A DNA stretch of 64,000 bases from Spinellus fusiger (taxonomy: Eukaryota > Mucoromycota > Mucoromycetes > Mucorales > Phycomycetaceae). A program made the translations under genes and the position numbers. A model generated the notes under the pieces. That model was not told the origin of the DNA, made no database searches, and saw nothing but the letters and a program-made list of their open reading frames with translations. The stretch lies in contig JALLLS010000056.1 in assembly GCA_025094145.1 (NCBI GenBank), positions 1-64,000 on the forward strand. The letters are read 5' to 3'. Shown here in pieces: positions 4,045 through 40,870 of this stretch; the stretch's first letter is position 1; each line of letters starts with the position of its first letter.

Positions 4045-5940
4045 GTAGTTTAGGCCCAAGGTCAAATATAGTTGTTGGTTCTTATTCTGTTCCTGTTTGT
4101 CCGTTTCATTGGTTCTCCGTTAGGAAGGTTGCCTTTCTCTGTCTTCTCGTGCTCCTCTAGATTTGCTCTCAGACCACCTCTTCCAGACCCACCAAACCAT
4201 AGTTCTCGCATCTGTAAAGAATCGAGTTCCCCACCGTTCATTTACAAGCCCTTCTAACGCATACATATACAAGAGCAGCCAGCTTTTCCCCGAGGTCCTG
4301 CGTGTCTCAATAATTTACCCTTTGCCCAAACGTACAAATGTTTAATTTTTTTTTTTCAAAGGTAAAATTATGGTCTGAATTTGATATCTTCCTTATTATT
4401 TTGAAAGTCACTGTATTAGAAACATCGGAAGCTCTTTCGTGTAATCAATATTACCCCAAAAGAGTAAAAATACAAATCGCAAAACTCAACATAAGTAACA
4501 TCCATCCATCAGCAACAATCCCTATCTACCCACATATAGTACACAGTACACATTGGATACACCAACTAAGGATCCTGGCCAACCACCAACCATCAAGCAG
4601 CCTCCTGTACCAGCGCCTGTCAGACCCTTTGTGTCTGAGGCCACCACTGCCACCACCATTCCTAACTCAGACAGCAGAAAACCCAGACTACTTACCAAAC
4701 GCACTCGTGCAAATACTTACGAGTATCAAATGACTGAGGTAGAAAAGTCTGATACCTTTACCCAGCAGATGATGGCATTTCTGTCAGATATTCAGAGACA
4801 AATGGCAACAATTGGACTCGGCATCCAGGAATTGGAAGCATAAGTCAAGGTCAAAGATGACCTTATTACATCCCTCCAGGCTCAGATCAATACCAAGAGT
4901 GCAGATAATGCACCCAAATCACCTCCCGCCCCTACTCCCACACCCATCCACACAGTGAAACCCACAGATGCCATAGAAAAGGCTACTGTCACTTATGCCA
5001 ATATGGCTAAAAAGAACGCCTCCCCGCCAAAGAAGACAGCAAAGGCCAGAGCAGTGCTTAGAGCACAAACAGTTCGGGCCTTACAAGAGCCTACTGGGCC
5101 CTCAGTATACGACTTTGTATACTTGCCCTGTTGCCGCTACCTCAAGTACGGCCAGATCCGCAAGATGTTGGGATCACTGAAGATCCAACAGTCACGGATC
5201 ATAGACATCCACTTCCCAGCAAGGGGTACAATTGCACTGCTTGTACACGGTAGCTTCAAGCAAGAACTCGAGGAGAAACTTGAGAAATCAAAGATCAAGC
5301 CACAGGCAAGCTTTGATCCAGTAGCTACAACGGTGATTGCAGACCCTAAGCTCCAGCAGGAGTCAGATAGCACCAAGGCTGTAATGGCCCAAAAACTCTT
5401 TGAGCAAAGAGTGTCCAACAATTGTCTTCGTGCCCCCACTCATTTAGGGTACAGCATTGCTCGCCACTCTGGCTCAAGCATTGCCACACCCCGTCTATTC
5501 ACCATTGCCTTTGAGAAGCTCTTGGCAGACTTCAAGGCCACAGTCACCAGCCCTCCCGCCACCCTTGAAAAAGAAGCCCTCCAGGCATTTGGGTCTGACT
5601 CAGCCATAGAAGGAGTCGAGGGAGACAATCAACACACCCAACAAGACTTGTAAATAGACCCATCTTTGGTCTATTGAAAGCTTGTGGGATTAGGCTCAAA
5701 CTAATGTCTATGTCTGCATTGTCATTTTCTCTCATTTCTCATATTTCTCTTCATTTTTTCCCTCATTTCGAGGTTTTATATACTCATATCTTCTGTTTCT
5801 TTTTTCCTTGCATTTATTCTTTCCACTTTTGTATTTGAAAGTGTTTATATGTATATCTTAATTGTTCAAAAGTTCTCATAGGGTGGCTAACATGCCCAAT
5901 GTGCGAATAGCAACCAACACCCAAAAATAAAAATACTTTA
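4045..5940 (+). mobile_element. LINE (non-LTR retrotransposon) carrying ORF1 only
   Basis: The unit comprises a 5' region, an ORF1-type coding sequence (4553-5653) and a 3' tail. The tail (about 5845-5935) recurs on the minus strand at 8085-8200, which marks it as a repeated 3' end. No reverse-transcriptase ORF2 lies between ORF1 and the tail. The 5' boundary is approximate: GTTTAGGCCCAAGG near 4047 also occurs near 24856, and a block around 4277-4301 resembles 24360-24393. This is either an internally deleted LINE or a non-autonomous ORF1-only family. Confidence 0.65.
4553..5653 (+). pseudogene. LINE ORF1 (nucleic-acid-binding protein), interrupted
   Basis: The N-terminal part (96 residues, Pro/Thr-rich then a short coiled-coil-like stretch) stops at TAA 4841-4843. 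The frame then continues open and in register to 5653. The second part contains the conserved ORF1 core of Mucorales LINEs as I remember it: a basic Ala/Lys linker (YANMAKKNASPPKK), then VYDFVYLPCCRYLKYGQIRK, RIIDIHFPARGTIALLVH and an Asp-Pro segment (IADPKLQQ). These proteins bind the element RNA and help target-primed reverse transcription. Removing the single stop would give about 366 residues, so the copy looks recently inactivated. The family assignment is from memory. Confidence 0.65.
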
Positions 5941-5941
5941 A

Positions 5942-6207
5942 ACTGTATTAGAAACAATACTTTGTAATCATTAAGTACTATTGTTAATACCAGTTACAAT
6001 AGCATAGTTACTGAAGTGATTATGAATACTGAGTCAATGAATGGCTATACAGTTCTTAATATAGTTGCATTTGGTTCTATTTTATGGATAATTACTATTA
6101 GTTAATTCCGTGTGAGTCCTATAATAAATAAATTTTAAACATTGTAATGCTGCAAATGCTGTGAGTTTATGGATAGCACATGTTAAACAATAAATTCAGT
6201 GACTGAG
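5942..6207 (+). repeat. Dispersed repeat R1, copy 1
   Basis: This 265-bp block is clearly similar to the reverse complement of 24583-24858. Shared words include TTAATACCAGTTACAAT, TTAATTCCGTGTGAGTCCTA and TTATGGATAGCACATGTTAA. Both copies can be read as a related peptide containing NTSYN and YTVLNI and ending NSV-stop; this copy has extra stops and shifts. It may be a coding fragment of an unidentified transposon. I do not recognise the family. Confidence 0.7.
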
Positions 6208-6262
6208 TTTTTTTTTGTATTCTTTATTGACTAGGCCGACGCATTATGACGTGCGGCACCTT
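6207..6262 (-). mobile_element. Tiny 5'-truncated LINE tail
   Basis: Read on the minus strand, the block ends GGCCTAGTCAATAAAGAATA, then C and a run of A. This matches the 34-bp insertion at 22322-22355 and resembles the tail of the LINE ending at 26232. It interrupts the end of repeat R1: copy 2 continues TGATTGAGTTGCAATG, and here similar sequence (CTTGAGTTGTAGTA) resumes at about 6263. The far boundary is approximate. Confidence 0.5.
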
Positions 6263-8069: not shown

Positions 8070-8222
8070 AAGATGGTTTACTGGCTACAGTTCAAATTAT
8101 TTTTATTTTTAATTTTGGGTGTTTAGTTGCTATTCGTGCATTGAGCATGTTGGCCACCCCATTAGAACTTTTAAAAAATTATGATAAACATACAAACACT
8201 CTAAATACTCAAGTGAAAAGAT
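8070..8222 (-). mobile_element. 5'-truncated LINE 3' end
   Basis: On the minus strand this block matches 5845-5940 of the ORF1-bearing LINE: GAGTGTTTGTATG, AAAGTTCTAATGGGGTGGCC, ATAGCAACTAAACACCCAAA. It ends in an A-rich tail of the form AAAATTAAAAATAAAAATAA. Only the last 110-150 bp of the element inserted here. Confidence 0.65.
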
Positions 8223-9055
8223 AAATAAATGTTTTACTGACCATAACACCGGGAAGAAAGAATGTAAGAGCACAATCCACAGTAAAAAAACAAGTTTTGT
8301 TAAACATTGATTATCAGTAACACCAAAATGCTAAAACCTGAACTTCTCTTACAATTATAGAATCGGTAGTCATTTACTTGAACAATAACTAAGTTGTTAA
8401 TTAAATAGTGTTCAATGCGTCTCTATTTTACTCTATTTTATTATCATCTCTCCCTTCTCTACAGTGGTGTGTCTTCTATTCATTGAATTATACCATCGAG
8501 TTTCATCTGATGGAGTGTCTAGACAAATGGCTTGTGTTGTGCCCTCTTTATTTACATTTATTTTCCCTTATTTTAAATTGACTTTAATCTATTCTAAATA
8601 TCACATATACAGAAAAGCACCCATGATTTCATAAAAATAATATATATTAGAGCAATGTACAGTAGTGGTGTATACCTTGTAGTGACATTAATAGATTGAA
8701 TAATAAACCAGAAGAACTAAATAAACTTCAAACCTTACCAAGTAGTTAAATGACTCACTAATCTTTATCAGATTTAAACCAAACAGTACTATTATAATAT
8801 GTTCTTAAAACTTCCAATACCTTAAATTCTATATCTTGACTAACTGAAATAGGCAATGAGTATATTAAAGAATGCATGTTTTATTTTAGTGTAGTATATT
8901 ATGCAGAACAGATTACAAACAAGTGTTTTATTGCTTTTTAGAATACACAGTGTATCCAATTTTGATACATGTTATGAAGTATCACAAAAAAAAGTATTTA
9001 AACCTTCTAATCTGACTCAACAATTGACACTACAATCTACTGCTCCTTTATCACA
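8223..9055. other. Upstream region of the fatty-alcohol oxidase
   Basis: AT-rich with no gene seen. A weak TATA-like run (AAAGTATTTAAACC near 8991) lies about 55 bp before the ATG, preceding CTACTGCTCCTTTATCACA, which would suit a transcription start region. Confidence 0.35.
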
Positions 9056-16004: not shown

Positions 16005-16112
16005 CAGTAGATTATACTAGATATTATAATGTCTTCTGTATGACAAGATCCAACAAGACACACTTCATTATTATTCTTTAGATAGTCTACCTGTATCACG
16101 GGTTTCCATCAG
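16005..16112 (-). ncRNA. Candidate Fanzor guide-RNA scaffold / right end (element B)
   Basis: Conserved non-coding block directly after the ancestral stop codon. It shares with 40545-40650 the words GGAAACCC.TGATACAGGTA, ACTATCTAAA, ATGAAGTGT.TCTT, TTGTCATACA and ATTATAAT. Conservation beyond the stop codon, up to the element end, is where TnpB/Fanzor systems encode their guide RNA. This is inferred from position only; transcription is unknown. Confidence 0.4.
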
Positions 16113-16545
16113 TTAGTTAACCGAGGCTCCAGTGATAATGAGAGAGAAGGATGAAGATGAACCAGAAGGCTTGGACATTTTCCTGGTTCAGAAAGAATAG
16201 ACAGAAATACAATAAGAAAGAGAAAAATAAACAGCCTTTAATAACATTGCATAGTATCAGCTACTATTTATTATGTGTTGATGTGATAGTGTCTTTAATA
16301 GCTCCTTAGGTCCAAAAGTATTTGTTTAGTTAACGTAAGATTCACTCTGCTCTTTTTTATTTATTTAACTTGTATGTTATTCTTTTATTCTATTCTAATG
16401 ATTATTACAGATAGAAGAACTTCAAGGAAATCACCACCAAAAGACAAACATTCTGATGCAGGCTATTGTACTCTTATACTATCTCTAAAAGATCTACACT
16501 GTATTAAATACGCTACGACTTATCATAGATGCTTGATTCAATACC
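16005..16545 (-). mobile_element. Fanzor element B, internally deleted
   Basis: Read on the minus strand, 16545 to about 16182 follows the 5' region of element D (39550-39892) almost base by base. Shared words include CTTTTGGTGGTGATTT, ACGTTAACTAAAC, TTTTGGACCTAAG and TAGCTGATACTAT. It then jumps directly to the C-terminal tail of the Fanzor reading frame (MSKPSGSSSS ... GASVN-stop, stop at 16115-16113). The conserved 3' block follows, to about 16005. The 580 bp holding zinc ribbon and RuvC-III in element D are absent. This is a non-autonomous derivative. Confidence 0.65.
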
Positions 16546-17912
16546 ATTGATTCTGTAGCTGTTTTTTACAAACTGCTAACTGTTCGTTTCTCGTTTTTTA
16601 GTGTATAAAACCCAAGGTAACATCATCCTGTATACCACTCAATATATCTCTTCTCGGTGTGTCTTGGTTATGCCATACATATAAATGAAAGTGATTTATT
16701 TTTCTGTTTGGTATCTATCATTAATTATTTGGTCAGTTACAATGACTTTTGTAAAAATGACCAAATGTACAACAGCTTGTATATCTATTTTGAAGAGGGT
16801 TCATTAAAAAATTAATGGGGTATATAATTAGGATTGTACTTTTTCATGTACTGTTGTAGTTTATTAGTGTTCTATTTAAATATACTACTGCCATTAATGT
16901 CACCAAAACAAAGGACAAACTACTATCGGATAGTCTTCTAAAAGAGTTTCTCGCTTCTCTACTCTATTTGGTGTAATGATCATTTACTCTCTTCTTTAGT
17001 ATCTATTTTCTTTTATAATTAACAGTAGAAGGAATAAATGATAAACGGCTCTACGGGTTATTCATTTCTTTATAGTTATTTCTCGTGATTAGGAGACATC
17101 TACTTATGAATGACATCCACCTACTATAAATAAGAGACAAATCACATCTCTCATGAGTATGAGTGTTATTATGAGTATGATGATTAAAAATATCAACAAA
17201 AGACTATTATTACCTTTTTAATGTTAGTCTTTATAATACTGATGTGTTGGCTCCTTGTTTTGCTAATTATGTGAAATATAGGGTGGATAAATCTATTGTG
17301 ATTAAAGTAGTTGATGGAATGCTTCTAGAATAACAAGAACATTTACAAATACCAGGAAGAAATAGATGACTCTATAATCTTCAATTACGTATAATTAACA
17401 GTAAATACCATACTCCATAATATACTAGTGCCTGAAAATTCAATCTTCTTATAGTAAAAGGAGATTTTCTATACTCTTTCATACTAAACCTACCAACAAA
17501 CAAAATAGAAAACAGTTTTAATTAATGTTTGTTTCAAAGATTGATTTCCACTAGAAAGAAGTGCCAAGTATATTCTTTCTTTCTCTTCCTTTTCTTCCTA
17601 CTGTTGTTATATATATAAATATATATTCATTATTATTATCTTTCACTTTAGGTAGAGTCAAGAGTCAGTCTGCTTAAAACGAGTAGTGACCTCATGTAGC
17701 GCCAGTACGCTTCATTTAAGAAGAGTCACGGTACAGCCCTCTTTTAGAACCCTTCGCAGTGTTAACAGCACATTGCTTTGAATTCTAATGTACGTCATCA
17801 TGCTAACATAGTTTCTCATTCTATGGTTGTGTGTCTTTAACTAACCCATGTATTTCTATCAAACTATCTCTACATGTCTATATAAAGTGAATTTGCATAC
17901 GCTTTATTATCA
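16546..17912. promoter_or_regulatory. Upstream region of the SAC3/THP3 gene, otherwise featureless
   Basis: AT-rich with no gene seen. A good TATA box (CTATATAAAG, about 17877-17886) lies roughly 30 bp before the start codon at 17913, so the 5' UTR must be very short or transcription starts close to the ATG. Confidence 0.45.
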
Positions 17913-20535: not shown

Positions 20536-21760
20536 ATTGTCTGACTTATCCAACACTGTGAACATCTTCACTAAGATCCCCGAGATGTATGGGAAATAGA
20601 CCAGCCTCGAGATTCACTCAGCCATCTTCCACCAGGTACTGAACATGAACACTACCCAAGCCGATGCATCTCGTACGCTCAATGTGCTTCCTAACACTGT
20701 ATGGAATATCGTGAAGCACTACAAGGCAATAGGCTTGATGGTGCCTTCTCCCAAGAGTGGCTGACAAAGAGAGTCGTACGACAGGGGCCTCCAGTGGTTG
20801 AGAAGAACACTAATGAGCAGCTTTCACTAGACCAAAGTGGTCATCATGGCAAGCATGGCCATTAAAGTCTCAGAAAAGACTTTGAGGAATTACCTTGACT
20901 AAATGAGCTTTCATTCATTTAGTATAGTAGTCAAGCCTCTTTTGACAAAGAATAGCATAAAGGTAAGACCCCAGTGGGCCCATGAGCACGTTAGTTGGAC
21001 TCATGAGCAGTGGTGTGAGGTCGTCTGGTCTAATGGGTTCAGGGTCAAACTTATGAGCCTTAACAGGAGATTCAAAGTCATCAGGCAGTGTGGTACGGCC
21101 TTTGAGCCTAAGAATGTCCTGGAAACAAGGAAGTTTGGAAGTAGTGGGGTGATAGTATGTATTGTATTAGTGGAGAGGGCATTGGTGGATTACTTATAGT
21201 GAAGGGTAGGGTATACTCCAACAAGTACATTGATGTCTTGGGAGATGTCTACTGCCATAAATTCAATTAATTCTCTCTATCCTAAACCCTGGAATCAGTT
21301 GCTGCCTACAAAAGGACAATGATAGACTCCATAAAAACAAGGCAACTCAATTAGAGAGTAGCAAAAGGGTATAGTAATGACTCTTTAATGGTCATCATAT
21401 AATCTTGATCTCAATACAACTGAGCATCTGTGGGCTTATCCCAAGAAGACCACTAGGAAAGGCAGAGGGTTATATTCTATCAAACAAAAGTTAGAGACTA
21501 CTCCAATGTTGGAATGAGGTAAGATATCTTAAGAAGTGACAGATATCTTCATTGCCAACATGGGGCAGAGATACTAGATTGTCAATGATGGCAAATAATA
21601 ATAATGGCTACTAAGCAGTCTTGTAATAAAAACCACTGTTATGTATTTTTAAACACTATTCTATGTATCTATTGAAGATGGCATATCTTTATCTAATGGA
21701 TTCATAAGGTTATAACACTATTAAGATAAACTACAAAACTAAAAATGGAGATCTATATTT
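20536..21760 (+). pseudogene. Tc1/mariner relic G
   Basis: Degraded transposase. A helix-turn-helix part (20560-20765) is followed by a readable stretch with KPLLTKNSIKVRPQWA, SWTHEQWCEVVWSNGF (first catalytic Asp replaced by Asn), VLETRKFGSSGV, and later DLNTTEHLWAYPK, the third catalytic region. Many stops and shifts make it non-functional. The part 21023-21760 is almost identical to 37173-37910. Confidence 0.75.
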
Positions 21761-22306
21761 GAAAATATTCTATTAGTTTTGTCAGGTCACTCTATATTTA
21801 TCATTTCCATTGAACTAGTAACTCGTATAAAATTTGTTGCATCAATGGCCAGAACCAATATCAAAATTACACAATCCTTATTACATTATAACAACTATGC
21901 CCAATTTATAAAAAATCATTTTATTAATGAATTCTATGGAGTAAATTATTCATTCTTTTTATGCCTTCACTTATACCTAATCCACTCTTATGACCTTCTA
22001 TAGATCTATAAAATAATGTCCCACTTTAAACCCTCTCAAATAGCATAAATATTGATACTTATTATGGAGGCCACTAGTATTTCCTGATAAAATACCAAAT
22101 CTATTTCCCATTCTCATTTTAACTTAAGAACCATGTTATTATAAGGGAAATCATAAATCATAGCGAGAAGATAGACTTGACGCAGATATACCAATGAAGG
22201 CTCACAGAAAGGATTCACCGCATAGCTATGTGACTTGACTCTTGCCTTTGACAGGTGCGGAATTCATAATATTTTTTTCACTAAGTCTGCTACACACCAG
22301 GAGATC
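21761..22306. other. AT-rich DNA, nothing recognised
   Basis: A 74-codon ORF at 21779-22003 is AT-rich and resembles nothing I know. No repeat match was seen. Confidence 0.4.
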
Positions 22307-24582: not shown

Positions 24583-24858
24583 GCAACTCAATCACTGCAT
24601 TTAATGTTTAACATGTGCTATCCATAAGCCCATACTTTTTGCAGTATGACACTGCTTAAGAAAAAATTATTGTAGGACTCACACGGAATTAACTCTGGTG
24701 GTCATTGTCCAGAAAAGAGAACCAAACTTACTTATATTAAGAACAGTGTATTTATTTATTGAATCAATATCTATAATCACCTCAACTGTCTCATTGTAAC
24801 TGGTATTAACAGTGATGCTTAATAATAACAAGGTATTGTTTCTAATAATGGACTTTAG
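24583..24858 (-). repeat. Dispersed repeat R1, copy 2
   Basis: Reverse-complement match to 5942-6207. This copy is the better preserved one: 24864-24679 reads as 61 codons with NTSYNETVEVIIDIDSINKY and YTVLNISKFGSLFW, ending NSV-stop. That peptide is conserved between the copies, but I cannot assign it to a family; an N-terminal transposon-protein fragment is possible. Confidence 0.65.
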
Positions 24859-36984: not shown

Positions 36985-37910
36985 GGCACCGAAATATTTA
37001 TAAACTCCTACTTAACACGTATAAAGCACAGTGTACATTTTCTTATGCTAACTCATCTAACACTGCAAACATTTTCGTCAAACCTCCTGAAATCTATAGA
37101 AAAAGATAATAGTATTGAGAATCTCTCATCAATCATTCATCAGGTGCTGAAAATAAACAATAGCAGAAGATAGTCTGGTCTAATGGGTTCAGGGTCAAAC
37201 TTATGAGCCTTAACAGGAGATTCAAAGTCATCAGGCAGTGTGGTACGGCCTTTGAGCCTAAGAATGTCCTGGAAACAAGGAAGTTTGGAAGTAGTGGGGT
37301 GATAGTATGTATTGTATTAGTGGGGAGGGCATTGGTGGATTACTTATAGTGAAGGGTAGGGTATACTCCAACAAGTACATTGATGTCTTGGGAGATGTCT
37401 ACTGCCATAAACTCAATTAATTCTCTCTATCCTAAACCCTGGAATCAGTTGCTGCCTACAAAAGGACAATGATAGACTCCATAAGAACAAGGCAACTCAA
37501 TTAGAGAGTAGCAAAAGGGTATAGTAATGACTCTTTAATGGTCATCATATAATCTTGATCTCAATACAACTGAGCATCTGTGGGCTTATCCCAAGAAGAC
37601 CACTAGGAAAGGCAGAGGGTTATATTCTATCAAACAAAAGTTAGAGACTACTCCAATGTTGGAATGAGGTAAGATATCTTAAGAAGTGACAGATATCTTC
37701 ATTGCCAACATGGGGCAGAGATACTAGATTGTCAATGATGGCAAATAATAATAATGGCTACTAAGCAGTCTTGTAATAAAAACCACTGTTATGTATTTTT
37801 AAACACTATTCTATGTATCTATTGAAGATGGCATATCTTTATCTAATGGATTCATAAGGTTATAACACTATTAAGATAAACTACAAAACTAAAAATGGAG
37901 ATCTATATTT
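36985..37910 (+). pseudogene. Tc1/mariner relic H, chimeric copy
   Basis: 37173-37910 matches 21023-21760 with only about three differences in 738 bp. The upstream part (37020-37172) is only loosely similar to 20536-20665 and lacks the rest of the helix-turn-helix region. It carries the same disabling stops as copy G. Confidence 0.75.
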
Positions 37911-38290
37911 AAACCCGTCGATTACATTCTTTTAGTCACTTTATGTAATAACAAATAGTAGATAATAAACATAATAAACATAAACATAACAAACATAACA
38001 AACATAATAAACAATACATAAAAGATAAACTCTTTATAGCTCTCTATTTATATGATGAGATAGATAATATCTTGAGCTAACCATCACACTTGTTATCAGC
38101 TTTAGCTAAGAATGCATAGCATCACTAACATAAAAATAAAACACTCTATATCCTGATATATTAATAATAAATTATCTTGGGATTTGTAGATCTTTTCTAT
38201 TATTAATTTCGTGGGTTCTTTATCTATATATGATTCATTCAATAATCACACTAACAAGTAATATATTGCATTTAGAGAGTCATTTAAACC
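37911..38290. other. AT-rich DNA with AAACATA microsatellite
   Basis: AACATAATAAACATA-type short repeats at 37968-38012. No gene seen. Confidence 0.5.
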
Positions 38291-38299
38291 CCTAAAAAG

Positions 38300-39125
38300 T
38301 GAATGAGATGGATTCAAGACACCTGGAAAGATGTTATTAGAAAGGATACATTTGCCTCATACAATCAACTGACATTTTGAATATTGAAGTTTGAGGTGGA
38401 TGCATATAGAGACACCCTTATCAGCTACTGTAATCAGTTAGAGTATGTATCCTTTTCTGTAGACCACAAGCCAGCCTTCACTGAAAAACACACAAAGAGA
38501 AACAGCTTTGTTGGGCTAAGGAACATGCCAGTTGAACAAGTGATTAGTGGAGAGGTATCATTTAGTCTGATGAGTCAACATACATTATGAAGAAGAGCAA
38601 TAGAGATGCCTGTGTCATTAAAATAGTTAGAGAAAGATATAATTATAACCCTATTGTTCCAACAATGTAGTTTGGTGGCTATGGTGTGATGCTTTAGAGC
38701 TGCCATTAGGCTAATGGATTTGGCTCATTAGTCTTTGTTGATGGCACTGTAAACCAAGACGAATACATCAGAATTTTGGCTGTTGAGTTCCATCCTTGGT
38801 TCATGAAATTGTATCAGAAAGAAAACAGATAGTTTCTGTTACAAGAAGATGGTGCTAGCTGTCATTGGGTCCTATGCTAGATGGTGAAAAGAGACACATC
38901 AAATTAGGGACTTTGAGTACTGGCCCGCACAAATTCCTGACTTGAACTCAATTGAACATGTCTGATACGCCTTGAAAATATGAATCGAAGAAAGAAGGGT
39001 ATCTATTATCAATTTAGAAAGTTGGTGTTGAACTTGCACAACGATGAGTTCAGAGTATAACAGATAGATACCATACAGTCATTGATGCCAAAGGAGGCCA
39101 TACAAAATACTAACTGTATTAACTG
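38300..39125 (+). pseudogene. Tc1/mariner relic I, a third family
   Basis: Degraded transposase. Readable pieces in order: AFTEKHTKRNSFVGLRN, LVFVDGTVNQDEYIRILAVE, FLLQEDGASCHW (second catalytic Asp) and EYWPAQIPDLNSIEHV (third catalytic region). Several stops interrupt it (for example GTC TGA where Trp is expected). It differs from the elements at 2754-3834 and 20536-21760. Confidence 0.75.
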
Positions 39126-39344
39126 TATTATCTTTTTATTTTCGATAAATAAATATGTTGAGCTTTGGTATGTTTGAGTGTGAAGCTTCTAGGTCAGATG
39201 TAAAATGTTTTATGTAATGAACATGTTCTATCCGTTTCATCCTGATATTTATATTCAAAGGTATTCAATTCAATTGAGTATGGCTGTATTCACACTTTCT
39301 TGAACAAGTATGTTTATCCTAATTATATACTTAATAAATTTTCT

Positions 39345-39435
39345 TTAGTAAACCATCGTCAAAATAGATGTACAGGCTGTTATAATTATGGCTATTTGCG
39401 CAAAAGTCATTACAATTGTCCAAATAATGATAGAT
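39345..39435 (+). pseudogene. Possible zinc-knuckle relic
   Basis: The plus strand reads CTGCYNYGYLRKSHYNCPNN, close to a CCHC zinc knuckle (C-X2-C-X4-H-X4-C) with one Cys replaced by Tyr. Such knuckles occur in transposon and retroelement proteins. Only about 30 codons are legible. Confidence 0.3.
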
Positions 39436-39991
39436 ACCAAACAGAAAGTAGAGACATTGTGATATGACCAAGAAATGGTAGCATACTGCAAAGAATGAGT
39501 AAAATGAATCAGTCATACAATCCTATGAGATATGTACTTCTTCTTCCTATAGAATAAGCTGTAGTATATTTGAATAAAGTGTATTGATCTTTCAGAGATA
39601 ATATAAAAGTACAACAGCCTGCATTAGAATGTATGCCTTTTGGTGGTGATTTATGCCAAGTTTTTATATTTGTAGTAATCATTAAAGTATAAAAGAATAA
39701 CAAACAATTTGAATAAATAAGAGCAAAGTTAATTGTACGTTAACTAAACCAAATACCTTTGGACCTAAGAAGCCATTGAAAACACCATAAAATCAATGGA
39801 TGATAAATAATAGCTGATACTATTCAATGTTGCTAATACAATAACTATTTATTTCCTCTTTCTTATTGTATTTCTATCTATTCTTTCTGAACTAAAGATG
39901 TATGCAGCCAACAAGATGTTAATGAAGTAAAAAAAATACAATATGCTTATAGATTCGACCTAGGGTTTTTACATGTACTTAATTTTTATAG

Positions 39992-40544
39992 GAGACTGAT
40001 GAGAAGCCTGTAGCAAGTTATCCAGGTGATAATACTACCAGAAGAATGACAATAAAGGGAAAAGTCATGCGGAGGATGTTGAAGAAAGAAGGATTCAGAT
40101 TCTATCTTATCAATGAATTCAAAACATCGAGCCTGTGTCCTGAGTGCAAGTACTCATCTTTGGAAACATTTAAACATGTCAAGAACCCCAGGCCCTATCA
40201 ACGAACAAAAATGCCCAAAGTTAAATGTCATGGTCTTCTCAGGTCATTTCTTCTTAATTCTATATCAAAAAAAGAAACTCATATTTCTCCCTTCAAATAG
40301 GTGTTCAAACCAGTATTGTATGAAAGACAAGACATTGAGACTTTGGAACTGTGATCTAGTTGTTATATTGAACTTTGGACATAGTCTAATGTCTCCAAGG
40401 GAAAATGGTACCCTCTCATAGTACTTTTGTAGATAGAACAAAAGAAAGCATGACTCCAAAGATACACCTAGAACCAATAAAAGGTCCAAGCCTTCTGGTT
40501 TATCATTCTCCTCCCCAGTGATCGCTGCAGCCTCGGTTGACTAA
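39992..40544 (+). pseudogene. Fanzor nuclease C-terminal domain (zinc ribbon and RuvC-III)
   Basis: Exon 39992-40242 reads ETDEKPVASYPGDNTTRRM ... KVMRRMLKKEGFRFYLINEF, then KTSSLCPEC and VKCHGLL. A 58-bp GT-AG intron (40243-40300) is followed by RCSNQYC and LWNCDLVVILNFGH, then SLMSPRENG. CPEC and CSNQYC form the four-Cys zinc ribbon. NCDLVVILN corresponds to the RuvC-III NRDLNAA-type motif with its Asp kept. INEFKTSSLC is the family's DEF.TS..C motif with Asp changed to Asn. The frame stops at 40421, but the family's Ser-rich tail (KRSKPSGLSFSS ... ASVD) is legible in another frame to the stop at 40542-40544. This is the best-preserved Fanzor part in the window; the rest of the protein is gone. 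Confidence 0.75.
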
Positions 40545-40650
40545 CTGAAGGAAACCCATGATACAGGTAAACTATCTAAAAACATAATGAAGTGTATCTT
40601 ATTCGATTTTGTCATACAAAAAGATATTATAATGAATAGTATTATAATGA
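40545..40650 (+). ncRNA. Candidate Fanzor guide-RNA scaffold / right end (element D)
   Basis: Non-coding block after the tail stop, conserved with element B. A small stem ATTATAAT (loop GAATAGT) ATTATAAT sits at its end, about 40629-40651. Known Fanzor guide RNAs overlap the 3' end of the gene and the element's right end, which fits this position. No evidence of transcription is available. Confidence 0.4.
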
Positions 40651-40870
40651 CTGGAGCAGTGATTAAATGCTAAATTCGGGTGTAACAAAGATAGATGGAG
40701 ATAGCAGAAAGAAACAAAGGACAAGACATCTGTGACGTGTATTAGAAGAACACCTTTAAATACTGTACAAAATAACGACATTATGGACTCACCAAAAAGT
40801 ACCTTTTTTCAGGAATCCATTCCAACAATATCTATAATATTCTATTCAAAAGGATTTTTTCAAAGTAACC
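40651..40870 (+). promoter_or_regulatory. Upstream region of RMI1
   Basis: Short AT-rich interval between the Fanzor element and the RMI1 start. It must contain the RMI1 promoter. No clear TATA box. Confidence 0.3.

Follow-up and report, generated by a model that had tools for sequence, protein, structure and literature searches.

Two decayed copies of a Fanzor-carrying transposon, here called elements B and D, lie in the window (the whole stretch of 64,000 nucleotides of Spinellus fusiger DNA that was analysed), and they keep matching each other beyond the stop codon of a Fanzor remnant. The question raised by this locus is whether the non-coding block behind the stop is the scaffold of a Fanzor guide RNA (omegaRNA) or only the terminus of a transposon. 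In our main reading, to which we give a probability of roughly 0.6, the block is the 3′ end of a high-copy Fanzor1 transposon, likely a Helitron, and would serve as omegaRNA scaffold, with the guide predicted to start at the element end. The kind is already known, since Fanzor1 genes have been published in Helitrons, in Mariner elements and in the MuDR-like elements of Rhizopus, Phycomyces and Mucor (PMC3627910; this and the other papers are cited from excerpts); the family described here is a new, large member. The features on which the argument is built are the following.

38264..40641, plus strand: element D, a 5′-truncated copy of the Fanzor-carrying transposon; family matches start at 38264
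38300..39130, plus strand: decayed Tc1/mariner-like transposase block in D, recognised by eye from translated frames
40001..40273, plus strand: remnant of the C-terminal half of Fanzor1 with the zinc-finger CPEC (tblastn with the frame of copy C110, 61% identity)
40302..40544, plus strand: last-exon remnant with CSNQYC, WNCD replacing WNRD, a Ser-rich tail and the stop TAA at 40542-40544
40545..40641, plus strand: 97-nt non-coding 3′ block, candidate omegaRNA scaffold and element 3′ terminus
40622..40637, plus strand: family terminal hairpin AGAYAT-TATA-ATRTCT, with GAAT replacing RTCT in D
40636..40639, plus strand: family terminal CTAG, ATAG in D; by the Helitron rule this is the element end and the following TA is target
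40642..40661, plus strand: unique DNA, putative guide source; ACT begins at flank position 9
16015..16846, minus strand: element B, an internally deleted copy without the Fanzor core
16015..16112, minus strand: 3′ block of B, 98 nt after the stop at 16115-16113, with the hairpin at 16034-16019 and CTAG at 16020-16017

D is truncated at 38264: 37 of the 39 other full rows begin at query position 315, which corresponds to 38264, and upstream sequence common to other copies is missing from D. Its Tc1/mariner-like block is absent from some copies, for example C110, and the frame of its last exon is broken by a frameshift. B carries a junction near position −171 that is common to other non-autonomous copies. 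The terminal stem of D is weakened, since two of its bases are changed, and in the terminal hairpin of B (16034-16019) one pair is broken. Neither B nor D codes for a working Fanzor, and RNA made from them could act only in trans. Apart from these elements, the window contains a 741-bp direct repeat (21023-21763 and 37173-37913, 99.5% identical) and other dispersed repeats that are about 78-81% identical (24585-24847, 5946-6209, 8086-8226 and 5812-5947); the latter are perhaps what had earlier been called elements A and C.

Comparison of the window with itself by BLAST aligned D 40471-40645 with B 16189-16011 on the minus strand (80.6%, 2.8e-39), together with pieces further upstream. The alignment continues past the TAA stops (40542-40544 in D, 16115-16113 on the minus strand in B) and then ceases; the shared sequence closes with ...CTAGTA, so that the block ends at position 40641 in D and 16015 in B. 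The sequence-only reading had described a match of about 100 nt beyond the stop followed by abrupt divergence, and this description stands, although the ends given there, 40650 and 16005, lie 9-10 nt too far out. It had also assigned the stop correctly to the Ser-rich tail, as the last exon is open to an identical ...GASVD stop at four loci. These are L014, L016, L023 and L026, out of 22 loci evaluated; the stop-codon survey covered 29 loci, seven of which lack the exon-start motif.

The same end recurs throughout the genome (38.1 Mb in 197 contigs). A 230-bp query gave 355 candidates, of which 40 were scored; all 40 matches begin at the first base of the query and, with the window's own copy set apart, they end at query positions 162-195, 32 of the 39 at 171-177. 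In an alignment of 29 copies the mean pairwise identity drops from 0.92-0.93 across the final 100 nt to 0.31 over the 20 nt beyond, where it has to be considered that these copies were picked by similarity to the block, which favours identity within it. The terminal 20-mer, AGAYATTATAATRTCTAGTA, has 284 genome matches with at most one mismatch, and its reversed control has none. Since perfect 24-nt palindromes are counted on both strands (12 such places in 100 listed rows), we estimate that the 20-mer is present at roughly 250 places rather than 284. An element boundary had been postulated where B and D diverge, and the aligned copies indeed have one fixed end genome-wide. The block is the 3′ end of a transposon with hundreds of copies in the genome. 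Locus L022, which ends in ACAGTA and in which the end motif could not be located, is not part of the 3′-end set.

The Fanzor frame of copy C110 (loci L071 and L002) has 663 amino acids. Among solved proteins, PpFz1 from Parasitella (PDB 9cf0-9cf3) is the closest relative (534 bits, 4.1e-159), and SpuFz1 matches with 150 bits (7.1e-43); no other solved protein matched the frame at E ≤ 1, and Pfam gave no family for the C110 Fanzor fragment at 1e-3. PpFz1 has 93 residues between the two aligned stretches where the query has 15, so the RuvC insertion (FRI) domain appears to be absent or short here. The top homologue is 49% identical across 93% of the query, and the 78 proteins listed from 7997 scored candidates show 24-52% identity; most of the named Fanzor homologues belong to Mucorales (Pilaira, Rhizopus, Parasitella, Gilbertella, Mucor), in agreement with a host of this kind, and Coemansia appears lower in the list. 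The published Fanzor motif, D-X(125-275)-[TS][TS]XX-C4 zinc finger-X(5-50)-RD (PMC3627910), is present: the C110 frame contains DPGRRD, 196 residues and TSSLCPEC, and the last exon belonging to it (L002) has CSNQNC...WNRD. By motif and kinship, the encoded gene is a PpFz1-like Fanzor1. The family still contains long open Fanzor frames as well as open last exons. A tRNA-like sequence, recognised by eye, lies near and upstream of the C110 Fanzor copy (L071, C110:about 852380-852455).

Other Fanzor-like families are present in the genome. One of them, the second high-copy family, has a CQSCGIVWNRDVNASKNI zinc-finger/RuvC end (L031-L060, e.g. C141:37095-37217); a genome search with PF07282 gave 457 candidates, and the C110 Fanzor protein had no match among the 30 loci L031-L060. 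A further Fanzor1 subfamily (L158-L163, L168-L171) has a tail rich in Ser and Lys and ends differently, in ...CTTTAGGTGTGTA, of which an inverted copy lies beside L160, so that this subfamily is possibly flanked by terminal inverted repeats (TIRs). Both were considered as an aid to aligning the block and discarded, since their 3′ ends differ from that of the block.

What kind of transposon ends in this way? The right end is formed by AGAYATTATAATRTCT, which overlaps the CT of CTAG, and is followed by T. CTAG followed by T was found in 27 of 29 copies that had been chosen without the end motif (the exceptions are L022 and L028) and in 67 of 69 aligned rows, D having ATAG. CTAG matches the Helitron 3′ end CTRR. 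In the textbook Helitron the hairpin sits farther upstream of the CTRR end; the family hairpin abuts CTAG and is thus closer than the textbook spacing. Full-length copies begin at about TATAATTACTGAAAAATCAC. Their 5′ end starts with TATAATTACTGA, that is, with TA and not TC; Helitron1 elements have TC at the 5′ end, and Helitron2 elements have T with asymmetric inverted repeats (PMC3627910). Seventeen left ends were fetched, and 16 could be scored with TATAATT or variants as element start: an A stands before the 5′ end in 15 of them, and TA directly precedes it in 12. The seventeenth, from C143 (L117), has a different first stretch and lies within about 20 nt of the CTAG end of another element. 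Of 12 copies examined for a target-site duplication (TSD), 11 have left and right flanks that resemble each other no more than mismatched pairs do; in the exception, C182, 16 nt are common to both flanks. A search for empty sites by means of repeated flanks (L009, L029) gave no clean site. The element thus inserts between A and T and in general duplicates nothing. This, the terminal hairpin with CTAG|T and the Rep relic described below make it look like a Helitron, which we consider likely; the TA at its 5′ end and the hairpin that abuts CTAG count against this.

The 3′ end is retained in copies that lack the gene. Among 40 copies selected by the terminal motif, 26 match the full copy beyond −200, near the fetched edge, and the others break at −165 to −176 (nine), −114 (two), near −72 (two) and −22 (one); the breaks at −165 to −176 are of the B type, most with one common junction as seen by eye. 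At least the last 68 nt are kept in 39 of the 40, L145 having only the last 22 nt. Much the same is described for CRe-1, -2 and -3 of Chlamydomonas, which are non-autonomous Helitron2 elements with Fanzor1: they have a 3′-terminal hairpin, a T-rich left flank and no TSD at full-length ends, and many copies are truncated at the 5′ end or internally deleted but preserve their 3′ end (PMC3627910). They differ in host and Fanzor lineage, and the family described here is set apart from them by its CTAG|T end, an internal Rep-start relic and ACT in the 3′ flank.

The Rep relic came from a genome profile search with Helitron_like_N, whose 27 matches correspond, when merged by eye, to 21 places. Among the matches listed, at least 11 of these places lie within or just upstream of the Fanzor family on the same strand: at 10 places a Fanzor match of this family lies no more than about 4 kb downstream, in the same orientation, and C124:141687 is about 0.5 kb inside the 5′ end of the family. 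Two of the eleven (C2 and C101) are strong RepHel matches, with Helitron_like_N in both and PIF1 in C2; the remaining nine score weakly, and eight of these contain internal stops. The nine weak matches are a relic of the Rep start of the Fanzor element itself. The Rep start of C110, IEQGCLNYIRHNQDTLRRDILSGVQDAV, has counterparts before the Fanzor frame in each of the four long copies, and the Rep piece of L003 matches Pfam Helitron_like_N with 1.4e-5, which is under the curated cut-off.

Only this N-terminal Rep relic lies inside the Fanzor element; RepHel is carried by a separate element that is nested in or adjoins some copies. RepHel as part of the Fanzor element was considered and rejected, since the 40 places scored with a junction query comprised two that span the junction (C2 and C101), six with RepHel only, which stop at or just before query position 1000, and 32 with Fanzor only. 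The RepHel elements also end in CTAG before T, but in a different 3′ sequence. The C2 and C101 composites are about 90-95% alike over RepHel and the 3′ half of the Fanzor; no more than 15 nt from the right end they begin to differ, as seen over 29-57 nt fetched past the end and with a BLAST overrun of 15 nt. This pattern would fit an end that terminates a rolling-circle product; another history is possible. In L173 (about C2:406190-409898) and L174 (C101), the RepHel Helitron end TTGCTAG|T precedes Fanzor-element sequence, which at this place reads GACA|TTGTGATATG without interruption in D; RepHel was therefore likely inserted there between A and T. L145 was considered as an autonomous partner and rejected: as seen by eye, the 3.4 kb upstream of it show no Rep-like frame and only an apparent host metabolic gene.

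If the block is the 3′ end of the element, is it also a scaffold? It had been argued that Fanzor guide RNAs come from exactly this place, and those of SpuFz1 and of the SfAV Fanzor1 do lie there. SpuFz1 transcripts consist of a 75-nt conserved scaffold and a guide of 14-15 nt at the right end of the element (PMC10432273), and the SfAV Fanzor1 reRNA extends about 15 nt beyond the TSD, with TIR and TSD within the scaffold (PMC10711439). The SpuFz1 elements of Spizellomyces likewise comprise full copies and many gene-less ones, the 'ghost' loci, that keep the right end, and their scaffold lies between stop and element end; they differ in having 30-nt inverted repeats at both ends, of which none were found here (PMC10432273). 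The omegaRNA of PpFz1, the closest solved relative, has 75 nt and two stem loops (PMC11423790), a size that would fit the end of the block.

The structure of the putative RNA is less clear-cut. The terminal hairpin (6 bp) is paired in 98.4% of the cells of the alignment, from which L145 was left out, and has one variable pair, 58-67 (UG 25, CG 23, UA 12, other 1); its covariation score was reached by 6 of 500 shuffles. Much the same fit is given by a 7-bp helix incompatible with the terminal hairpin (94.6% of cells paired), with one covarying pair, 12 two-sided changes and 12 breaks, and two further candidate helices (5′ stems) are paired in 79% of cells. Fisher tests on variable pairs gave p = 0.01 and 0.003, with relatedness ignored. 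For a 7-bp SL1 as in the Fz1 RNAs of Gt, Spu and Pp there are three candidate helices with 79-94.6% of cells paired, one of which excludes the terminal hairpin. RNAalifold predicted no pairs on the block alignment, minimum free energies of five sequences showed no excess stability over shuffles (z −0.24 to +0.22), the terminal hairpin was missing from the best single-sequence folds of both window copies, and Rfam gave no match up to E = 5. The covariation check that had been suggested for the block is thus weak: there is one variable pair per candidate helix, and none of the four helices counted is convincing.

Conservation in decayed copies had been put forward as a sign of function, and this argument did not hold. 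Identity to L002, measured over 37 copies including B and D, is 0.882 in the coding tail, 0.870 in the upper block and 0.853 from −58 to −21 (five copies with shorter homology, L121, L148, L128, L143 and L145, were excluded); the 3′ part of the block is slightly less conserved than the coding tail (p = 0.019). Since the coding tail is equally conserved, persistence of the block in B and D is no evidence of function, and because the non-coding block and the dead coding tail diverge alike, shared recent descent is sufficient to explain it. Taken together, position, kinship to Fanzor1 and unique flanks speak for the scaffold proposed by the sequence-only reading, which we consider likely; conservation, covariation and fold energy do not, and the hairpin is almost always paired in the alignment but missing from the best folds of B and D.

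It is possible, although we are inclined to doubt it, that the block is a 3′ terminus read only as DNA, with the palindrome as rolling-circle terminator and no guide RNA, the Fanzor being dead or its guide being encoded elsewhere. Because the stretch looks like a Helitron 3′ terminus, hairpin and CTAG can be explained without any RNA, and the lack of a conservation excess and the weak RNA structure would be expected. L145, one of the 40 motif-selected copies, has kept just the last 22 nt, and the C2 and C101 composites are alike until the right end and then differ. This explanation is less easily reconciled with the persistence of open Fanzor frames and last exons, or with the retention of at least 68 nt in 39 of 40 copies, though deletion breakpoints so far to the right are rarely to be expected anyway; in addition, the located Fanzor1 guide RNAs (SpuFz1 and SfAV, from the papers excerpted above) sit at the corresponding place.

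Less probable is that the element is moved not in the Helitron mode but by a Tc1/mariner transposase with TA as target, or by a site-specific recombinase. D and many other copies do contain a decayed Tc1-like transposase, TA lies before 12 of 16 left ends and after CTAG in 65 of 69 aligned right ends, and the flank motif AGTA-N5..7-TACT resembles the inverted half-sites of a tyrosine or serine recombinase, a reading that was left as a rival when the Helitron Rep relic appeared. Tc1/mariner TIRs are flanked by TA; here TA is mostly there, but terminal inverted repeats were not found when three left ends were compared with the right end. The best inverted match, an exact 11-mer given by one of the three left ends, lies inside the element, 15 nt from its 5′ end and 56 nt before its 3′ end, and the scores of the other two were within those of shuffles; moreover, some copies do without the Tc1 block. 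Improbable is the view that nothing in the block is functional, B and D being two recent copies among hundreds in which the whole element matches: it accounts for the similarity of B and D, both of which are decayed, and for the uniform divergence over coding tail and block, but leaves the fixed end, the palindrome and the separate deletion junctions that retain the 3′ end unexplained.

According to our main reading, the Helitron-borne scaffold would work as follows. Where a working Fanzor is made, the 3′ block would be transcribed as omegaRNA scaffold, and the guide is predicted to start at the element end, in the unique right-hand flank. A Helitron Rep/helicase acting in trans would rely on the terminal hairpin to nick at CTAG|T, and Fanzor would bind this hairpin in its transcribed form. 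Because the guide corresponds to the right-hand flank, Fanzor would cut the unoccupied site, where the left flank supplies a TAM with (T)TA at its end; the element would then be copied back during repair. The published TAM of PpFz1 is ATN, whereas most left flanks are NTA, which counts against the proposed reading.

The right flanks themselves would provide the guides. All 75 that were collected (28 by similarity, 40 by terminal motif, five further ends and the two of the window) differ from one another. In 42 of the 75, ACT begins at flank positions 7-9; in the similarity and motif sets taken apart these are 18 of 28 and 18 of 40, with 0-5 and 1-5 in shifted windows. Within positions 4-12, ACT occurs in 46 of 75 flanks (shuffle mean 12.1, maximum 23 in 2000). 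A preference at insertion likely writes this common motif into the predicted guides, so that the seed region of the guide would carry it, provided that the guide starts after CTAGTA. No description of a shared ACT guide motif was met in the excerpts of the Fanzor and Helitron literature, which were not selected for this motif.

It is tempting to speculate, and we put this forward only tentatively, that one hairpin has two jobs, as rolling-circle terminator of the Helitron and as last stem of the omegaRNA, and that guides stamped with ACT form a library shared in trans. Nick by the HUH nuclease and guide start would then coincide by construction, because one hairpin serves both. A target preference A^TA-N6..8-ACT would stamp ACT into the guides at positions 7-9, and the roughly 250 right ends, gene-less copies included, would be the guide library for a few working Fanzors.

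What a transposon gains from its Fanzor is an open question. For bacteria, it is believed to be answered by an HUH transposase and an RNA-guided nuclease that share the right end. IS200/IS605 TnpA-TnpB combines an HUH nuclease with an RNA-guided nuclease whose guide starts at the right end (PMC10432273), as proposed here; the family described here has a Helitron Rep relic instead of Y1 TnpA, and a Fanzor1 with a likely intron. A PpFz1-like Fanzor in a Helitron-type element with hundreds of copies, many of them gene-less, would be a eukaryotic counterpart in which this model can be tested, and predicted guides, target sites and the TAM side can be read from each copy. At two loci, L003 (C182) and L004 (C195), the right flanks, GTATAATTACTRA, resemble the left end of the element itself.
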